Source: an uncultured Alphaproteobacteria bacterium
Lineage (GTDB): Bacteria > Pseudomonadota > Alphaproteobacteria > UBA828
Direction of reading: 5' to 3'
DNA: 38,123 bases
Assembly (NCBI GenBank): GCA_913053235.1
Contig: CAJXFT010000014.1
Location: forward strand, 1 to 38,123
In this document: in pieces, positions 29,633 through 38,024 of the stretch
Layout: each line of letters opens with the position of its first letter
How positions within the stretch are numbered: position 1 is the first letter of the stretch
Translations under genes and position numbers: made by a program
The notes under the pieces: model-generated
Told to the model about the DNA's origin: nothing
The model's input: the letters and a program-made list of their open reading frames with translations, nothing else
The model's database searches: none

Positions 29633-30742
29633 TTATGCCAGTAACGCATAGACGCGCTCAAAGGCGGCGAGATTTGCGGCCACGGAAAAGCGTTCCTCGA
29701 TCGATTTTCGCGCCAGCAGGCGGCGCGCGGCGCCGACGTCCGGCGCCTCGAAAGCGAGTTCCCGAATGGCCTTGGCCAATGCCTTGGCATTGCGCGGCGG
29801 CACGATGCGCCCCGAATCGCCTATGATGCGCGCCGCGTCGCCAACATCGGTGGCGACCGCCACAAGGCCACTCGCCATGCCCTCGGCAAGCGCATTGGAA
29901 AAGCCCTCGCCGTAAGCCGAGCTTGAGACGATCAGGTCGCAGGCGCTGAGCAGGCGGGCGACATCACCGCGCCGCCCGAGGCCGTGCCAGCCCGGGCGCT
30001 CGGCCAGCGCTTCGGTGCCGAGGCCGATCAGCAGCAATTCGACATCCGGCACATCGCGCATCGCCGCGAGCAGGGTGTCATGATCCTTCATCGGATCGAC
30101 GCGCGCCACATGGGCGACCAGCGGCACGTCCGAAGCGATGCCGAGCTCGGCACGGGTTTCGGTGCCGAGCACCGCGTCGGGGCGGAAGCGCTCGGTATCG
30201 ATGCCGTTGTCGATGACGCGGCTCTGCCGTGGCCGGTATCCCAATTCAAGATGCGCCTTTAATCCGGCTTCGGAATTGGCCACCACCATATCTGGGAGGT
30301 GCGAATAGCGCGCGCACATGCGCACCGTCCAGCGCAGCCCGAGGCCGTAATCGGCGAGCAACATGTCGGAGCAGCGAATCCCCCAGATCAGCGGCGTTTG
30401 CCGGCGCCGGCCGGACCAGCGCAGCGCGAAGGCGGCGCTGAGATCGGCATGATACATCCAGCTCTGAACGATGCCGGGCCTGGTGCGGCGGATGAGGGAT
30501 CGCAGACGCAACAGGCCGGCGAGGCTGGGCCGGCCGCGCCGCATGCCGAGATCGCGCACCATGACGCCGGCCTTCTCGAGGCGCCGGCGCAGCGCCCCGC
30601 CGGGTATCAGGCTGATCACCATATCCTCGGCGCCGGCCTCCTTTCGCGCCATGGCGAGCAGCGCCAATTGGCTTTCGGCGCCGCCGCTGTCGAGCCCGGT
30701 AATGACATGCATGACGCGGACGCCTCGTTCGGCTACCGTCAT
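29633..30742 (-). CDS. GT4-family glycosyltransferase
   Basis: A 369-residue GT-B glycosyltransferase. VMHVITGLDSGGAESQL near residue 10-26 is the GT4 opening found in exopolysaccharide enzymes. The second half has VIDNGIDTERF, VAHVARVDPMKDHDTLL and the E-x7-E region AYGEGFSNALAEGMASGLVAVATD. ATG at 30742 or an internal Met at residue 11 could start it; the internal one begins exactly at the first beta strand. It heads the run GT4-asnB-GT4 and diverges from the methyltransferase gene with a 26-base gap, so both promoters overlap or lie inside coding sequence. Sugar unknown. Confidence 0.92.
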   Translation of the reverse strand: MTVAERGVRVMHVITGLDSGGAESQLALLAMARKEAGAEDMVISLIPGGALRRRLEKAGVMVRDLGMRRGRPSLAGLLRLRSLIRRTRPGIVQSWMYHADLSAAFALRWSGRRRQTPLIWGIRCSDMLLADYGLGLRWTVRMCARYSHLPDMVVANSEAGLKAHLELGYRPRQSRVIDNGIDTERFRPDAVLGTETRAELGIASDVPLVAHVARVDPMKDHDTLLAAMRDVPDVELLLIGLGTEALAERPGWHGLGRRGDVARLLSACDLIVSSSAYGEGFSNALAEGMASGLVAVATDVGDAARIIGDSGRIVPPRNAKALAKAIRELAFEAPDVGAARRLLARKSIEERFSVAANLAAFERVYALLA

Positions 30743-30768
30743 ATCGAATCAGCGGGGATCGCCCGAAC

Positions 30769-31719
30769 ATGACATTCCGCGCCCTCATAAAGCGCAGCGT
30801 GGCGCTGACATGCGCCTATTATCTCCATGACGATTGGCGGGCGCGCCGCCGCCTCGCGGCGGGCCGGCTGGAAAGCGCCTCGGGCGCGCGTCATGCGGGT
30901 CTCGATATCGCCGCCTCGCTTCGTTATGTCGAGCGCGTCTACGGCGATTACCTCGCCTATGGCGGCGTCACGCATTTCAGCGGCAGCGTCGCCGAGATCG
31001 GCCCGGGCGACAGTTTCGCCGTGGCGCTGCGTATCCTCGGCGCCGGCGCCGGCCATGTTCACGCCATCGACCGCTGGGTTTCGCGGCGCGACGGTGAGGC
31101 GCAGCGCCGCATCTATGGCGCCCTTTCCGAGCGCCATGGCCTCGGCCATCTGTTCGAGGGCGTGCCGGCCGAGGAAACCATAAAAAATCTCACCTACCAC
31201 GCCGGCCAACCGGCCGAGGCGTTCTTCCACGATAGTGGTCTTCGCTTCGACGCCATCCTCAGCCGCGCCGTGATGGAGCATCTCTACGACCCGCTCGCCG
31301 CGCTCGACGGAATGGCGCGCAGCCTCAAGCCGGGCGGCATCATGATCCACCGCATCGACCTCAGGGATCACGGCATGTTTTCCGGCCATCATCCGCTGAC
31401 GCTGCTCACCTTCTCGGATGGCCTCCACCGCCGCATGACCAGGGGCGCCGGGCGGCCCAACCGGGTGCTTATCGACGGCTATCGCGAGTGGCTGCAACAT
31501 TCCGGCCTGAGCGGCGGCATCACCATCAGCCGCCTCGCCGGGGTCGGCGAAGAACAGGACCCGGCGCCCTGGCAGGCGCTGGACGACAGCGCCAAATCGC
31601 GCGCGCTCGAATGCGTGCGCACCATCCGCCCGCGCCTCTCCGGCAGATTCAAAGCCATGGCGGATGAAGATTTGGCGGTCGCCGGCCTGGTCTTGGTGGC
31701 GCGCCGCAACGGCGGCTAA
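30769..31719 (+). CDS. Class I SAM-dependent methyltransferase
   Basis: A 316-residue protein with the Rossmann methyltransferase core. VAEIGPGDSFAV at 74-85 is SAM motif I (Glu76, glycines 78 and 80). DRW at about 100 fits the acidic residue after strand 2, and ILSRAVMEHLYDPLAAL near 165 with LKPGGIMIHRIDL near 190 are motifs II-III of the Methyltransf_11/23 group. It is the only plus-strand gene in an otherwise minus-strand glycan locus and overlaps the stop of the convergent GT4 gene by four bases. It may methylate a sugar of the surface glycan; this rests only on location. Confidence 0.9.
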   Translation: MTFRALIKRSVALTCAYYLHDDWRARRRLAAGRLESASGARHAGLDIAASLRYVERVYGDYLAYGGVTHFSGSVAEIGPGDSFAVALRILGAGAGHVHAIDRWVSRRDGEAQRRIYGALSERHGLGHLFEGVPAEETIKNLTYHAGQPAEAFFHDSGLRFDAILSRAVMEHLYDPLAALDGMARSLKPGGIMIHRIDLRDHGMFSGHHPLTLLTFSDGLHRRMTRGAGRPNRVLIDGYREWLQHSGLSGGITISRLAGVGEEQDPAPWQALDDSAKSRALECVRTIRPRLSGRFKAMADEDLAVAGLVLVARRNGG

Positions 31720-32795
31720 CATAGCTGCCGCAGAATATTCTCGAAGCGCCGGGCAACGGCGGCGGGCTCATGGCCGGGCGGCAGCAGGCTTGGCCTTGGT
31801 CTCTTCTCTTTGCCCGCACGAATATTGATCATTGCAGTGGCGAAACCGTCACCCCAAGCGGCCATCGTTACGGCACCCGCCGGCGCCGCCGAGGCGATCT
31901 CGGCGATGGCGCCGGATTGCGGTGTGGCGATCACCGGCGTGCCGCAGGCCAGCGCTTCCAACGCAGCGTTGGGCATGCCCTCCCAGCGCGACGGCAGCAG
32001 GAAGGCATCCGCCGCGGCGTAATGCGGCCAAGGATTGCCCTCAAAACCCGGCATATGAATGCGATCGCCCAGCCCGAACCTGCCGCACATCGCTTCCAGC
32101 GCCACACGCTCAGGGCCTTCGCCCAAAATGGTGAGGCGGCATTCACCGGGCAAATTGGCGAACGCTTCTATCAACCGATCAAAACCCTTTTGCCGGGTCA
32201 GGCGGCCGGCGGCAATGAAACAGACCGCATTCCCCTCACCTGCGGGCAAAGTCCCTATTTCGGCGCGCAGCGCCGGCGCGTCAACCGGGTTTGGCAAAAG
32301 GTGCAGGCGCGTATGGGCGACCCCAATGTCTCCCGACATTTCCCCCATCATCCGATGCGAAGTGCAGATGACGGCATCGGCGCGCGGATAATAGCGCCGG
32401 TAAAGCCAACGCGTGAGGCCGGGCCGGGGACCGGCCGGCAGGCTGAGCGACGGCATATTCGCCTCGCGCACGATGATGCGCGTGCCGAACGGCAGCAGGC
32501 GGCGGCCTGCAATCAGGGCGAGATTGACATAGCCGAGCGAGGAAATTACCGCCCGCGGGCGCGCCCGGCGAATGGCGCCGACCAGCGCCGGCAAGGCATG
32601 GCGCAGGCGCGGCCTGGCCAAATCGGTGAGCGGGACGTCGCCCGGCACTAAATCGGCGAGCGGTCCGTCCCCGCTCAACACGATCAGCGACGGCTGGAAC
32701 CGCGCGCGGTCGAGCCCGCCAAGCAGTTGCAGCATGACCCGCTCGGCGCCGCCGCCGGCGAATGAGGGCAAGACAAAAGCGACGCGCGTGCTCAC
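31716..32795 (-). CDS. GT4-family glycosyltransferase
   Basis: A 359-residue GT-B enzyme. SFAGGGAERVMLQLL near residues 11-25 is the GT4 opening loop. The region RLTRQKGFDRLIEAF, then LGEGPERVALEAMC, and the E-x7-E stretch SRWEGMPNAALEALACGTPVIATP are intact. It resembles capsule and N-acetylgalactosamine-transferring GT4 enzymes, but donor specificity is not predictable. It starts 37 bases after the ATP-grasp gene and so ends the minus-strand run that begins with the radical SAM gene. This is the main link between that run and glycan assembly. Confidence 0.93.
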   Translation of the reverse strand: MSTRVAFVLPSFAGGGAERVMLQLLGGLDRARFQPSLIVLSGDGPLADLVPGDVPLTDLARPRLRHALPALVGAIRRARPRAVISSLGYVNLALIAGRRLLPFGTRIIVREANMPSLSLPAGPRPGLTRWLYRRYYPRADAVICTSHRMMGEMSGDIGVAHTRLHLLPNPVDAPALRAEIGTLPAGEGNAVCFIAAGRLTRQKGFDRLIEAFANLPGECRLTILGEGPERVALEAMCGRFGLGDRIHMPGFEGNPWPHYAAADAFLLPSRWEGMPNAALEALACGTPVIATPQSGAIAEIASAAPAGAVTMAAWGDGFATAMINIRAGKEKRPRPSLLPPGHEPAAVARRFENILRQLC

Positions 32796-32832: not shown

Positions 32833-33894
32833 TCAATGCGACCACTGGCCGTCCGGGTTAAAGAAAATCTGGTCCATATGGCGCACCATCCGCCGGCCAT
32901 AGGGAATCTTCGCCTGATAGGCGCGAACCTCATCGGGCGTGATCAAGCCGAGCGCCAGTTTGACCGCCAGCCAGGGTTCATTGAAATCGCGGTCGTAGAT
33001 GAAGGTGCTGGTGCGCGGATTAATTTCGATCAACTTGCCGCCGATGAACTGGATGCTGAGGTTATAGGAGAGCGGTATCCTGGCGATGATGGCGGCTGTT
33101 TTTTCCACCAGTTCCGGACGCTCGATCAATTCGCCCTTATCGATCACACCCCAGCGGTGACTCTCGCGCGACTTGACGGTGGTCAGCAAAGCCTCGCCTT
33201 GATAGCCGATCGTCATCACATCGCATTCTTCGCCCTGCATCACCTCCATGAGAAGCAATTTGGGAAAATCCGGCGCGTCGCGGAAAATACTGCTGAATTC
33301 ATCGAGCGACATGTAGCGCGCGGTCGGCTTTTGATTGAGCAGCTGGTCGCGCCGGTCGACATTTTGCGAAAGGATACGGAAGCCCCGGCTGCCCTTGCTG
33401 ACATGGGGCTTGAAACAAAGGTCGCGCGCCGGATAGCCCATTTCCTCGGCGCGGGCGATGAATTCCTCCAGAGTCGCGGGGCTGGTATGTCGCGGCGCCA
33501 GATCGCCGTCGATCTCGGCAATTTCGCCGTAAAGCCTGAATTTATTGTCGGCCAGTTCGATCAGGTCCGCGTCGGAGCCGACAACCGTTATGCCCATGGC
33601 CTCGATGTCGGCGCGCATCGACATGACGTGCCATACATCGTTGCCCGAAACATTCAACAGCGCATCCGGGCGCACGCGTTCCAGGCATGCAAGCAAGCTG
33701 TCGCGATAGCCTTCGGCGCCGGCGCGCGGAATTTGTTGAAACCCGTCGCAGAGAAAACGCCCGCAAGCCTCACCGTCCATATCGACGCCGAAGACGCGCA
33801 CCTGCCGTTCGCCGTTGCCTTTGAGCTGGCGAATGAGTGTGGGACTTTGCGGCGCCCCGGCGGCGGTGATGAAAACCGTCAGAGGCGCGCTCAC
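32833..33894 (-). CDS. ATP-grasp enzyme, carbamoyl-phosphate synthase large subunit-like
   Basis: A 353-residue protein. The N-terminal pre-ATP-grasp Rossmann part begins TVFITAAGAPQSPTLIRQL and carries FGVDMDGEACGRFLCD, as in ATP-grasp ligases of the PylC/CarB-like group. The ATP-grasp body has LADNKFRLY near 117, CFKPHVSKGSRGF near 160, LLMEVMQGEECDV near 215 and a metal-site ending FIGGKLIEINPRTSTF near 290. Such enzymes join a carboxylate (activated as acyl phosphate) to an amine or thiol. Start overlaps the stop of the flavodoxin-like gene by four bases (ATGA). The function may be ligation of an amino acid or other acid to a sugar amine; substrate unknown. Confidence 0.88.
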   Translation of the reverse strand: MSAPLTVFITAAGAPQSPTLIRQLKGNGERQVRVFGVDMDGEACGRFLCDGFQQIPRAGAEGYRDSLLACLERVRPDALLNVSGNDVWHVMSMRADIEAMGITVVGSDADLIELADNKFRLYGEIAEIDGDLAPRHTSPATLEEFIARAEEMGYPARDLCFKPHVSKGSRGFRILSQNVDRRDQLLNQKPTARYMSLDEFSSIFRDAPDFPKLLLMEVMQGEECDVMTIGYQGEALLTTVKSRESHRWGVIDKGELIERPELVEKTAAIIARIPLSYNLSIQFIGGKLIEINPRTSTFIYDRDFNEPWLAVKLALGLITPDEVRAYQAKIPYGRRMVRHMDQIFFNPDGQWSH

Positions 33895-35426
33895 GCCGCC
33901 CCCAGTTTTGAGCTGCCGCGAACCGGTGCGAGGCGCCGGCGCGCCTCTTCGGCAAGGCGCTTGCGGCGCATGTCAACCGCTTCTTCGCGGGCATTCATCG
34001 CCTGCGCCTCGTTGTCCTTGGCTTGCGCGAGGACATAGCCCACCGGGCGATATTGCGTGCCGGTCAATTCCAGGCTCGAGCTGGCAAGACGGCCCGCGGT
34101 CAGCCGCCGGCCGTTGGCCACGGCGCGGGCAATGCCATCCTCGACGTCTTCCGCATTGATCAGCTTGCCGTCCTTCAGCCAGCCGGTGATGGGCCGGCAC
34201 ATCACCGTGTGATGGCGGATGAAGGAGGTCATGACACGCACATCCAAATGTTCGCCTGAGCCGAGCTCGGCGAATATCAGCGGCGCCACCAGACGGTCGG
34301 TAAAGACATAATCGCCGCGCCGGAGATAACGCGTGCGTTCCATGAATTCCTGATAAACCGAGACCAGCCCGTCACGGCGCTTCGGGGAAAAAAGCGCCGG
34401 TAGCAGAATGTCGGGCGTCAGCAGGCTGTCATGCAGGTCCTTCATGGCATCGTCGCGGCGCCCGATAATGCAGCGATATTCCTCATCCGGCCCGATATGG
34501 GTGGGGCAGATATCGCAGGCAATACAAGGCCGGATCTTGCGCCCGACGGGATTGAGAAGGCTGACATCGGCGTTGGCCGAGTCAAGAAACGGCGCCAGCC
34601 GGGCCGCCATTTCAGCGCCGCGGTCCTGCAGCAGCCAAACCCCCAATCTGGGCAGATCCGAAAGCTCGGCCTGCTTGCCGGCGCCGAGTTCGGCGGCGAC
34701 GCGCGCGATGCGCCGGCCGGTGCCGATGCTGGTATTGATGCCGTAGGAATCCTTGGGCGAGGTGCCGATATCGCCGGCATGGGTGGTGCCGCCATATTGC
34801 GCGGTGGTGTCGGAATCGTTGCCGACGCCCAAGAGGCCAATATCGAGCATGTCGAGCATCTGGTAGATGAGCGTCGTTTCCTGCCCGCCATTGCGTTTCG
34901 CGCCGACGGCGAGCCCGCCGTAAACCTTGCCGGCGAGCGCCTTTTGCAAGCCGTCATCGGCGCGGATCATTTCAATCAAACGCTGGCTGAGCGAGCCGCG
35001 ATCGCCGAAATAGACCGGCGTGCTGAGAAGGATCCCGTCGGCCGCGATGAGCGCCTGCTTGAGCGCCTCCAGATCGGCCACCGTGCCGTCGGCGCGAAAA
35101 TGATTCGAGAGCGCGATATGGTTGATATCGCCGGCCTGGTCGCACACGCCCCACAAGGCGGCGGCGAGAGTTATTTCGCTGTTGGAGAGGCCGCGCAGCC
35201 CCTCGGTCTTCTGCAGCCGCCTGTATATCTGATCGAACGGCAGGCCATCCTTGCGCCCGGCTTCGACGAACTGATCGAGGTGAATTTTCGCCTGCTCGCC
35301 GAGAAAATCATCGAGCCGTTCGCGGCTCGGCAAGGCGGTGATTTCCGCGGCCAGATTTTTGGCCCCGGCTTTCGAACGCGCGGCGCGTAAACTGGCCGAC
35401 AGGCCGAGAATAATGGGCTTGCTCAT
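33891..35426 (-). CDS. Tandem flavodoxin-like oxidoreductase with Isf-like cysteine motif
   Basis: A 511-residue protein with two NAD(P)H/FMN flavodoxin-like regions. The first opens with ILGLSASLRAARSKAG and has TPVYFGDRGSLSQRL at 136-150, the usual FMN-loop sequence. It then carries a variable NDSDTTAQYGGTTHAGDIG segment. The second begins near 295 with Cys301, Cys304, Cys307 and Cys319 (CX2CX2CX11C). This order resembles the compact 4Fe-4S motif of iron-sulfur flavoproteins (Isf), followed by LLTPDILLPALFSP and the flavodoxin-like end. The C-terminal 80 residues are basic. I do not know its substrate. It may supply electrons to the radical SAM enzyme or reduce a sugar intermediate. Gap to the PP-loop gene is 66 bases; the ATP-grasp gene overlaps its stop. 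Confidence 0.8.
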   Translation of the reverse strand: MSKPIILGLSASLRAARSKAGAKNLAAEITALPSRERLDDFLGEQAKIHLDQFVEAGRKDGLPFDQIYRRLQKTEGLRGLSNSEITLAAALWGVCDQAGDINHIALSNHFRADGTVADLEALKQALIAADGILLSTPVYFGDRGSLSQRLIEMIRADDGLQKALAGKVYGGLAVGAKRNGGQETTLIYQMLDMLDIGLLGVGNDSDTTAQYGGTTHAGDIGTSPKDSYGINTSIGTGRRIARVAAELGAGKQAELSDLPRLGVWLLQDRGAEMAARLAPFLDSANADVSLLNPVGRKIRPCIACDICPTHIGPDEEYRCIIGRRDDAMKDLHDSLLTPDILLPALFSPKRRDGLVSVYQEFMERTRYLRRGDYVFTDRLVAPLIFAELGSGEHLDVRVMTSFIRHHTVMCRPITGWLKDGKLINAEDVEDGIARAVANGRRLTAGRLASSSLELTGTQYRPVGYVLAQAKDNEAQAMNAREEAVDMRRKRLAEEARRRLAPVRGSSKLGAA

Positions 35427-35490
35427 GGTCTCGCCTTCCGTGTCTGATGGCTTGATTGTCGCACTCGGATATGGTCCCTACAAGACTAAC

Positions 35491-35505
35491 GTTCAAAAAT
35501 TGAAC
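35491..35505. repeat. Short inverted repeat at the PP-loop gene end
   Basis: GTTCAA and TTGAAC are perfect complements separated by AAA and cover the stop codon of the PP-loop gene (35493-35495). It marks the junction where AT-rich sequence meets the GC-rich flavodoxin gene. There is no T-run, so a terminator is unlikely. Confidence 0.4.
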
Positions 35506-35987
35506 ACCATTGTTTTAGCCAGAATTTCCAAAACACCGGCCTTATCTATGCCCGCTTCCTTGAAGGGTAGTTTGACGATCAGATTGTCATGCTTGGAGCT
35601 GTAACCCTCGCGGTATTCCTCATCGCTTCGAATCGCTACGTAGGAATAGACCGTCGTTCCTCCTTCGAGCATGGGACGTATCCATTGCTCGAAGGGGCGT
35701 AACTTGAGTTGGCGGGTGCACCACCGAGTCTGGGCAGAGGGCAAAAAGCTGTTGTACTGCTTGAGCCAGAAATCGAAATCACGGTCGGGGTTGAGCCGTT
35801 TGATCGGCTTGCCCAGGACGCCCTCCAAGCGCCCCAGGAATTCGTATACCTCCGGCAATTCCTTGCCGGTATCCGTAAAGAAGTACTCAATGTCTATTTC
35901 CGGATGGTACTGGCGCATATGAACCGCCAGCGCCGCGCTATCCCGGCCACCGGATAGGCCTAGGACATGCCTTTCAGCCGCCGCCAT
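35493..35987 (-). CDS. PP-loop ATPase of the PAPS reductase family, apparently C-terminally truncated
   Basis: A 164-residue protein. LSGGRDSAAL at 11-20 is the PP-loop that binds ATP and forms an adenylate. YFFTDTGKELPEVYEFL follows, then RWCTRQLKLRPFE with Cys90, and SYVAIRSDEEYREGY, all typical of the DndC/CysH-like PAPS reductase family. Known relatives continue well past the KEAGIDKAGVLEIL segment with a further Cys-containing domain, but this frame ends 11 residues later in KTMVFNF and a stop. The other frames hold no continuation, and the next gene starts 66 bases on. It is therefore likely a damaged or shortened gene; a functional short form is possible. It overlaps the radical SAM stop by 14 bases. 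Confidence 0.78.
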   Translation of the reverse strand: MAAAERHVLGLSGGRDSAALAVHMRQYHPEIDIEYFFTDTGKELPEVYEFLGRLEGVLGKPIKRLNPDRDFDFWLKQYNSFLPSAQTRWCTRQLKLRPFEQWIRPMLEGGTTVYSYVAIRSDEEYREGYSSKHDNLIVKLPFKEAGIDKAGVLEILAKTMVFNF

Positions 35988-37719
35988 TACGAGGCAGCCC
36001 TTCCTTTAGATCGCATTTACGCCAATAGTTTTTAAGATCCGTACGTTCGAGAAGCCTCGGTATCCATAGTTCCTCTTTCTCACCAAACAGGCGCTTAGCA
36101 CCATCGATTAAATTAGATACATGTTCGCTTTCTAAAGATAGGGAGTAGCAAACCTGCTCATTAAAGGAAACCAGTGGCCCTTCCTTGGCGTTAAGAGTAA
36201 ACCATTGATCAATATTAAATCGAAGTGAAAGTAAGGAGGTTTCCAATGCCCCAGGGCTTTGCCGTATAACCGGGCTCAGATTTCGTGTGGCAATCATCCA
36301 TTTTTCCGCATCTTCTAAGGATTCTTTAATGGTCATATCAGCATCCTGAGAGAGCAATGATCGGATCACCTCGTATCCAAGTTCTATTGCCCCTGAACAA
36401 CAATTCATCATGACTTTTGCGAAAGCCGCGCGGATTAGGTTGTCCCCCTCCCTAAATTCTTTCAGGTTGTTATAATGTGAGGGTTCGAGATAGTGAGCAT
36501 AGATTGCCTCGCGAGATTCAAAAAGTTCCGCTTCTGCATCATGAATGAATTCGGAGTACACATTGGAAACGGGTGTGTCGACACGGCATATTTTAGTCCA
36601 AACGTCCTTGAAAAAATCAAAACGATTAATCTCCAATTCATCCAAGTGGCGCATAAGAGGTTCAAAGAAGCCGTTACTATAAAGTGTGACAACAAATGAA
36701 AAACCGCGGCATTCGAGATAGTCGGGAAACGACATTGTGTTTGTCGCCACGCATATTTCCTCGATCTCGAAACATTTTTCCCCTTGGTATTCACCAAACT
36801 GCCTTGGAAGAATTCTGAATTTTGTGACAAGACCATATTTCTTACGGCTCTCCCTTGATGCTAGACTGGTGCCTTTCAATATCATTGCCGTGTATGGGAT
36901 AAATTTGTTTATTTTTACTTGGATCATTTTTTCTATCCCGTTGAAGAAACTTTTCTTCGTTTCAAGCGGCATTGGATAAATGAGATCCGAGTAAGAATTT
37001 ATCCCGAGTTTAATGAGCTTCTGGTAGATTTCACGAAGTTTTCCATCATCCAGGTTCTTCCTCTTGACGGCGACTAATGTGTCTGGGTTCGTGGATTGTA
37101 CGGAAAGAGAAATAAACAGTTTGCTATCCATTTTCTGGGAGACGCTGATTATACGCTCCAACTGAGACTTGCCTGTTGCAATGTCAAAATTATGCGGCCA
37201 ATTCCATTTCTTGCGAATTTCTCCGATATGTTCAGCGATCTCTTCGTCGCGCTTCAGCATTCCAAAGTTGGAGTCGGCAAAGGCAAGTGTGGATGCGGGA
37301 AAATTTGTCATCCTTTCCGCAATGTAATCCAATTCCGCACAAATTCTCTGCACACTGAATGATGCTATTTTTCTGTACCATTCCTCACCCGCGGCGCAAT
37401 AAGTGCAATGGTAGGGGCAACCCCGAGCGGTTTCCATGAAAGGGAAAAAGCTGCCATCCAGATAACGGTCGAACATTCCGTTGAGATAAGGAGATGGTAT
37501 CACTTCCAGGTCTTGAATTCGCGAAACCGGCATTTCCCAAGCCAGTCTATTTTCAACCGCATTGAATGCCATGACGCCAACGGGCGGGTTCATGGTTAGG
37601 TCTTTGACGCCGCGCCCTTCGAGAAGCCTCCTCAGCAACGCTGTAAAAGGAACCTCTCCCTCCATGGGAATATAAAAGTCAAGATAGGGAAGGTTGGCTA
37701 AATATGCTGTTCTGTCCAA
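35974..37719 (-). pseudogene. B12-binding radical SAM protein, C-terminal part (frame-split)
   Basis: A 581-codon open frame holding the radical SAM domain and C-terminal region of a cobalamin-binding radical SAM enzyme. RGCPYHCTYC at residues 99-108 gives the CX3CX2C cluster ligands (Cys101, Cys105, Cys108). ADSNFGM near 145 and SVQSTNPDTL near 205 are normal barrel segments. The frame opens at a TTG (37719) with no spaced ribosome site. The true N-terminus is the B12-binding piece at 37698-38024 in another frame, joined if the run of eight G at 37741-37748 had nine. The joined protein would be about 683 residues. Such enzymes methylate or rearrange unreactive carbons. Either a pseudogene, a phase-variable gene or a sequence error. 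Confidence 0.85.
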
Positions 37720-38024
37720 CTCCTCTTTGGGAAATTCTGGCCCCCCCCTACACAGGTCGTATTTGGGTTCTGTTTTTTTGCATAATCCCAGATAACCTTG
37801 TTAGCTTCCGTATTCCAACAATAATTCGATAGGGCGACAACATCTGGCTTGGTTTGATTGATGTGCCGAAGGGCATGATCAGGATCGGTCTCGATTGTGA
37901 ACTGAAACGCGTCTTCCCCAAGCTCTTTTTGAGCATATGAGGCGAGAAATCCCAACGCTAAGGGAACAAAATTAGAGTGACGTCCGGCTGTAGTATGTCG
38001 TAGATCAGCAAAAAGGATTTTCAT
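37698..38024 (-). pseudogene. B12-binding domain of the split radical SAM protein, N-terminal part
   Basis: A 108-codon frame from ATG at 38024. MKILFADLR, NFVPLALGFLASYAQKEL and KPDVVALSNYCWNTEAN form the Rossmann-like cobalamin-binding domain found before the radical SAM barrel. It runs to TCVGGG, then reads GQNFPKRSWTEQHI and stops. With one extra G the sequence becomes VGGGPEFPKEEL and continues into the radical SAM frame; GGP-x-F/Y-P is the usual linker here. The DxHxxG histidine motif is absent, as in many members of this class. AGGGGG lies about 15 bases before the ATG, a poor distance. Confidence 0.82.
37741..37748 (-). repeat. G8 homopolymer at the radical SAM frameshift
   Basis: Eight consecutive C on the plus strand (G on the coding strand) lie where the two frames of the radical SAM gene meet. 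Nine (or six) would restore a single frame. Runs this long slip in replication and are also a common place for sequencing error. Confidence 0.9.

Follow-up and report, generated by a model that had tools for sequence, protein, structure and literature searches.

ISF2, a rare fused flavoprotein with a conserved four-cysteine motif, is tied to surface-glycan genes in an uncultured alphaproteobacterium

The contig CAJXFT010000014.1 of an uncultured alphaproteobacterium, 38,123 nucleotides (nt) long and analysed here in full as the window (it is the entire contig C14 of genome assembly G000), encodes on its minus strand a 511-residue fused flavoprotein that we name ISF2. Its first half is a flavodoxin-type domain and its second half carries four closely spaced cysteines reminiscent of the iron–sulfur flavoproteins (Isf), which raises the question of what such a chain does and whether the cysteines hold a cluster. 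To our knowledge, no physiological role has been agreed on for Isf-type proteins, nor is flavin/iron–sulfur chemistry established in the assembly of surface glycans. Our data indicate that ISF2 is a real, conserved and rare fusion tied to surface-glycan biosynthesis, and no description of a fusion like it appeared among the papers listed in searches of the open-licence PMC library. Being connected with glycan genes by its neighbours and by a shared palindrome, ISF2 gives a testable place for flavin/iron–sulfur chemistry, and it would allow a clean decision on whether a motif of the form CX2CX2CX11C can bind a cluster.

Translation of the gene confirmed the 511-residue chain with Cys301, 304, 307 and 319 described in the original prediction, and the spacing CX2CX2CX11C is exactly the one that had been given. 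The plus-strand frame sharing the ISF2 start is interrupted by stops, and a plus-strand open reading frame (ORF) of 319 residues (34431–35390) overlaps the gene. ISF2 was found in six genomes, drawn from overlapping sets of 60, 385, 398, 48 and 9 genomes that were searched at differing thresholds: the window's own, G007 (62% identical to the window's protein over the part present, which lies on two contigs), G331 (67%), G532 (48%), G429 (45%) and G562 (two fragments). G532, G429 and G562 are members of a single order that is not in the class of the window. A pattern scan of the genomes of named species gave L010 as the sole ISF2 match; it comes from an uncultured Rhodospirillaceae bacterium and is apparently a G331 contig. 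Viral contigs searched with the ISF2 protein and with a profile of its relatives held no ISF2 relatives, and a CIACD(I/L)CPT-type pattern gave 0 matches there. Plasmids yielded one 30% match to whole ISF2, in the N half only, and two matches to the C half at E values of 3 and 9. The distribution of ISF2 is thus rare and patchy.

The four motif cysteines are conserved throughout. ISF2 has six cysteines (95, 301, 304, 307, 319 and 410), and in the six-row alignment, whose sixth row is a fragment ending short of the site, Cys301, 304, 307 and 319 are cysteine in 5/5 rows covering it (the window and four relatives, down to 44% identity), with identical spacing; Cys95 and Cys410 vary. Conservation in homologues had been set beforehand as one test of the original prediction, and it was found in all four relatives that cover the motif. 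Comparison with the L010 gene gave a non-synonymous rate (dN) of 0.28 and a synonymous rate (dS) of 1.14, the latter near saturation; the protein is under purifying selection, and both halves are constrained (dN and dS of 0.26 and 1.16 for the N half, 0.30 and 1.03 for the C half).

The N half is a WrbA-like flavodoxin. ISF2 matches Pfam FMN_red (PF03358) over residues 112–185 with 46.3 bits against a cut-off of 24, and the family is matched by four of the six alignment rows (E up to 1), the other two being without most or all of the N half. At E 1e-5, ISF2 is the sole FMN_red match in the genome of the window; a search of 48 genomes of G532's order at E 1e-12 used a threshold too strict to be informative. 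Aligned with seven WrbA-type sequences by hhalign, the N half scored 97.2% (E 4.6e-11), sharing the PVYFG and GGQET regions over 140 columns, and all four rows that hold this half retain its loops PVYFGDR and VGAKRNGGQET(T/S). The PDB entries matched best are either WrbA or an NAD(P)H dehydrogenase (quinone). The protein differs from WrbA in its second domain and in about 60 residues inserted between the first strand (ASLR/GSLR) and GLSNSE, and it lies well below the WrbA models of NCBIfam (NF002999, 25.1 against 141 bits; TIGR01755, 18.2 against 132.5). Judged from the alignment, the insert would lie inside the putative loop for the phosphate of flavin mononucleotide (FMN), where Isf-type sequences have a short loop.

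In the window's protein, the C half matches no Pfam family, and a search of solved structures with a C-half profile gave 9 sequences, the best of them the mitoribosomal protein mS38 (E 0.009), which we take as chance. We compared the C half with 11 Isf-type flavodoxins, drawn from viral contigs (two) and plasmids (nine; a twelfth sequence, L043, was dropped for its length), and hhalign aligned them at 85.0% (score 43.5, pairwise E 6.3e-6), cysteines on cysteines. The best of 40 column shuffles reached 20.6 (1.6%), and the reversed sequence 26.2 (8.4%) over only 15 columns. A joint alignment of the C half with five viral-contig Isf-type sequences contains the invariant columns C, C, C, C, D, P and R, and within the ISF2 alignment YQxF(M/I)ERTR and RHH are kept in 6/6 rows. 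Among seven rows considered (L030, L031 and L064 to L068), L064 and L067 were set aside as chance matches. The C half is therefore likely related to the Isf-type flavodoxins, by a relationship that leans on the cysteines. Its first-strand loop reads LQD or VQD, without the FMN-phosphate-loop residues of the Isf-type set (GSPR..N-type), which suggests that FMN has been lost from this half. Against WrbA-type sequences the C half gave 0.3%, and the two halves look like members of different branches of the superfamily. An internal duplication, with the N half copied to the C half, was considered and is not supported (hhalign between the halves 0.3%, no detectable homology). The description as a tandem flavodoxin accordingly holds well for the first half and only moderately for the second, which has no Pfam match and an Isf-type alignment that falls from 85% to 3% without the cysteines; the proposal of a double-domain protein whose second half resembles iron–sulfur flavoproteins agrees with the profile alignment and the conserved cysteines.

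With the Isf proteins, whose prototype is from Methanosarcina thermophila, the C half shares the four cysteines followed by the D, P and R columns, as seen with the five Isf-type sequences of the joint alignment. The compact Isf motif is CX2CX2CX5-7C, most likely ligating [4Fe-4S] clusters according to the available excerpt of PMC3164229, so that the last gap of 11 in ISF2 departs from the 5–7 given there and the compact motif does not apply. A second difference is that the motif half of ISF2 is without a recognised FMN-phosphate loop, the FMN domain being a separate half of the chain.

The gene neighbours of ISF2 are shared across genomes. A MenC-like gene of the enolase superfamily adjoins ISF2 in four of the five other genomes (G007, G331, G532 and G562). 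In the genome of the window, the MenC-like copy is the first gene of another contig, C1, where it ends 40 bp from the contig edge. Its protein scored 131.1 bits with NCBIfam TIGR01927 (cut-off 130.55), compared with 117.2 and 74.0 bits for two relatives; from these sequences the enolase superfamily is sure and the identity as o-succinylbenzoate synthase is not. The set KxK, D, E, D, K, which we take to be the catalytic residues, is present in 5/5. An ATP-grasp gene follows ISF2 in the same order, with the same 4-nt overlap, in the window, G331 (L010) and G007 (L002).

Upstream of ISF2, a palindrome, GTTCA-N5-TGAAC, precedes a pair of promoter-like hexamers, and the arrangement spans 35455–35505 of the window, 193–243 of L022 and 1017–1067 of L010. 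A consensus promoter scan of the window did not call the ISF2 site, and the promoter is therefore weak at best. The palindrome occurs at five places in the 3.92-Mb genome, and the reversed pattern at none: one copy is upstream of ISF2, C1 has three, and the fifth, on contig C154, is judged to be due to chance. The three C1 copies (41803–41882; L075 1803–1882) start 32–33 nt apart and lie, within a nonulosonic-acid glycan cluster, between a MarR-EPS-like regulator and a phosphonate gene pair encoding a PepM-nucleotidyltransferase and Ppd. The 3′ end of the C1 MenC-like gene is without the palindrome, there are no one-mismatch copies on C1 or in the window, and the palindrome was not found in the stretches examined from G532, G429 and G562. 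C1 also encodes PseI, NeuB-like, N-acetyl sugar amidotransferase and RfaH-like proteins, and its PepM, Ppd, PseI and N-acetyl sugar amidotransferase pass their family cut-offs. Passages of PMC6697681 describe the fusion of PepM with PF12804 as frequent where phosphonates are used to tailor the cell surface. The Pnt phosphonate-tailoring clusters of that paper, with their PepM-PF12804 nucleotidyltransferase, resemble C1, where PepM-PF12804 and Ppd have the palindrome shared with ISF2 upstream; they differ in that ISF2 is no known phosphonate enzyme, and words beginning with 'flavo', 'enolase' and 'radical' are absent from that paper.

Taken as a whole, these observations are best explained, in our tentative view, by a dedicated reductase of a surface-glycan pathway that joins two unlike flavodoxin-type domains as a variant of the FMN_red/Isf superfamily. 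The N half would be a WrbA-like FMN domain taking hydride from NAD(P)H, and the C half an Isf-like domain that kept the four-cysteine site and lost a recognisable FMN-phosphate loop. The C half most likely holds an iron–sulfur cluster that receives electrons singly, or else provides the part of the active site that faces the substrate; electrons leaving FMN would go either to the four cysteines or straight to a substrate that the C half holds. ISF2 would carry out one step in building an unusual surface glycan, and it may share its substrate, a carboxylated sugar intermediate, with the MenC-like enzyme. The same pathway would include this MenC-like enzyme, acting at the carboxylate alpha carbon, and, in the alphaproteobacteria, the ATP-grasp ligase and glycosyltransferases. 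The ISF2 promoter is probably controlled through GTTCA-N5-TGAAC, perhaps by the MarR-EPS-like regulator of C1.

A number of results weigh against this explanation. With the cysteine columns held fixed, the best of 40 shuffles of the C half reached 34.2 (46.7%); replacing Cys by Ala lowered the score to 22.5 (2.8%, same register), and the part after the motif scored 22.8 (4.7%) by itself. Because the last two fall below the reversed control, the Isf match is mostly carried by the cysteines. A structure prediction of ISF2 with one relative was unusable (predicted local distance difference test, pLDDT, 36.0). A model of the C half built from one relative and the five viral-contig Isf-type sequences reached a pLDDT of 46.4 and a predicted template modelling score of 0.50; its first part has the strand and helix order of a flavodoxin, to which we give no weight, as it is circular with flavodoxins in the input alignment. 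With this model Foldseek had no match at E 0.001, and the best 50 of its 746 rows included no flavodoxin. As for the neighbourhood, G429 has ISF2 and no MenC-like match, and an acyl carrier protein gene follows ISF2 there. In G532 and G562, the ATP-grasp proteins share no more than 21–25% identity with the alphaproteobacterial ones, and their genes lie further off rather than directly after ISF2, that of G532 on the other strand. On C1, the NeuB-like (392.3 against 399.65), RfaH-like (131.6 against 144.5) and MarR-EPS-like (60.8 against 88) proteins are below their cut-offs, and the PepM link comes from one genome only, in which C1 and the window contig are not joined.

Further points on the same side come from the flavone reductase FLR (PDB 7D38-7D3B), a relative of the Isf-type set. 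Read from alignments, FLR has the same CX2CX2CX11C spacing, placed before a DD pair, so the longer last gap of ISF2 is not unique. Like ISF2, it combines a flavodoxin-type domain with an extra C-terminal part, as stated in passages of PMC7862272, although it has a single flavodoxin-type domain against two in ISF2, and the C-half profile of ISF2 gave no match to 7D38 at E up to 10. These passages report flavin absorption peaks for purified FLR and FMN at the dimer interface; the text of the paper is without the words 'iron-sulfur', 'metal' and 'Cys', and '4Fe' appears in it once, about other enzymes. As FLR shares the spacing without a reported cluster, CX2CX2CX11C is no proof of one. It is possible, though we rather doubt it, that the working enzyme has no cluster at its four cysteines. 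ISF2 would then resemble FLR in being an ene-reductase or quinone reductase with flavin only, and its C half would do no more than shape the substrate pocket or the dimer. Such a spare site would not predict conservation as strong as that observed, with only the four motif cysteines kept in every row covering them; FLR may have lost a labile cluster, and the compact motif of Isf most likely ligates [4Fe-4S] (available excerpt of PMC3164229).

It is unlikely that ISF2 is a general WrbA-like quinone or oxygen-stress reductase that stands in the glycan cluster by chance. The N half is indeed closest to WrbA, and reduction of O2 and H2O2 has been proposed for Isf proteins (excerpt of PMC3164229), but the rare and patchy occurrence of ISF2 in the six genomes found, the recurrent MenC-like neighbour, the WrbA score far below its family cut-off and the lack of any second FMN_red match at E 1e-5 in the genome all speak against it. 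Returning to the reading of ISF2 as a dedicated glycan reductase, a more specific version appears improbable on present evidence: the WrbA half, with FMN alone, and the Isf half, with a cluster alone, would divide the labour in one chain acting after the enolase-superfamily enzyme, with the MenC-like protein dehydrating or isomerising a sugar acid and ISF2 reducing the resulting C=C bond. If true, this would be a new route to deoxy sugar acids for a phosphonate- and nonulosonic-acid-bearing surface glycan under one palindromic operator.

The original prediction had also placed ISF2 between a PP-loop ATPase and an ATP-grasp ligase and suggested it as the electron source of a radical S-adenosylmethionine (SAM) enzyme encoded upstream. 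The ATP-grasp gene adjoins ISF2 in G331 and G007 as well. The PP-loop ORF matches only part of its family model, seems to stop early and has no place next to ISF2 in the relatives. It ends in the codons MVFNF and a stop that lies inside the palindrome; this end is similar to the enolase tails of G007 and G331 and looks like a remnant of a lost enolase gene. Further upstream, one gene is split by a frame change into a B12-binding and a radical SAM ORF, which cover successive parts of a single family model (20.1 and 168.9 bits, cut-off 700) and overlap, in different frames, at eight consecutive Gs (37741–37748). The GC content is 44–45% for the radical SAM and 54% for the PP-loop ORF, compared with 59–69% for eight genes including ISF2, and at third codon positions it is 0.47 for the radical SAM ORF against 0.77 for ISF2. 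Close copies of the radical SAM gene are missing from the other five ISF2 genomes, of which four hold matches of 22–36% identity and G331 none. A foreign stretch thus appears to have been inserted into, or to have replaced, the enolase/ISF2 junction. Flavodoxins reduce radical SAM enzymes, and the genes adjoin on the same strand of the window, but with a proposed partner that is foreign in composition, split and without close copies in the other ISF2 genomes, next to an apparently truncated PP-loop ORF, and with a promoter-like site of its own for ISF2, we reject this role on gene context as very improbable, which removes a tempting but poorly supported link.

Table 1. Positions of ISF2, its parts and its neighbours in the window
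Feature	Positions	Strand	Basis or remark
ISF2, 511-residue fused flavoprotein	33891..35426	-	Translation, Pfam FMN_red, relatives, purifying selection
N half, residues 1-250, WrbA-like flavodoxin	34677..35426	-	hhalign, alignment
Insert of ~60 residues (15-78) in putative FMN-phosphate loop	35193..35384	-	Alignment; loop assigned putatively by comparison with Isf-type sequences
C half, residues 252-470, Isf-like domain	34017..34673	-	hhalign with controls, alignments
Cysteine motif Cys301-304-307-319 (CX2CX2CX11C)	34470..34526	-	Conserved in 5/5 covering rows
Promoter-like hexamers TTGTAG-17-GACAAT	35455..35483	-	Same 17-nt spacing in G007 and L010
Palindrome GTTCA-N5-TGAAC, candidate operator	35491..35505		7 nt upstream of first hexamer in window, G007 and L010
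ATP-grasp ligase, PylC/carbamoyl-phosphate-synthase-like	32833..33894	-	Start overlaps ISF2 stop by 4 nt
Family-4 glycosyltransferase, next after ATP-grasp	31716..32795	-	Family match; similar ORF in L010 and L002 read by eye
PP-loop (PAPS-reductase-like) ORF, apparently truncated; not beside ISF2 in relatives	35493..35987	-	Partial family match; truncation and breakpoint probable
B12-binding and radical SAM ORFs, KedN5-like; not beside ISF2 in relatives	35974..38024	-	Family models, GC, genome searches

Three minor observations concern the genes around ISF2 and the C1 cluster. In G429, the acyl carrier protein encoded directly 3′ of ISF2 (L018 312–566) has 84 residues, and its best NCBIfam match is the ornithine-lipid acyl carrier protein, at 48.3 bits against a cut-off of 130. 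Within the C1 glycan cluster, one ORF (L024 16516–18681) fuses pyruvate-kinase-like and ATP-sulfurylase-like parts, both below their cut-offs. Beyond the glycosyltransferase gene of the window, the minus-strand ORF at 30739–31722 has no family match and the overlapping plus-strand ORF at 30769–31719 is methyltransferase-like; the gene in this place therefore seems to run against the strand of its neighbours.

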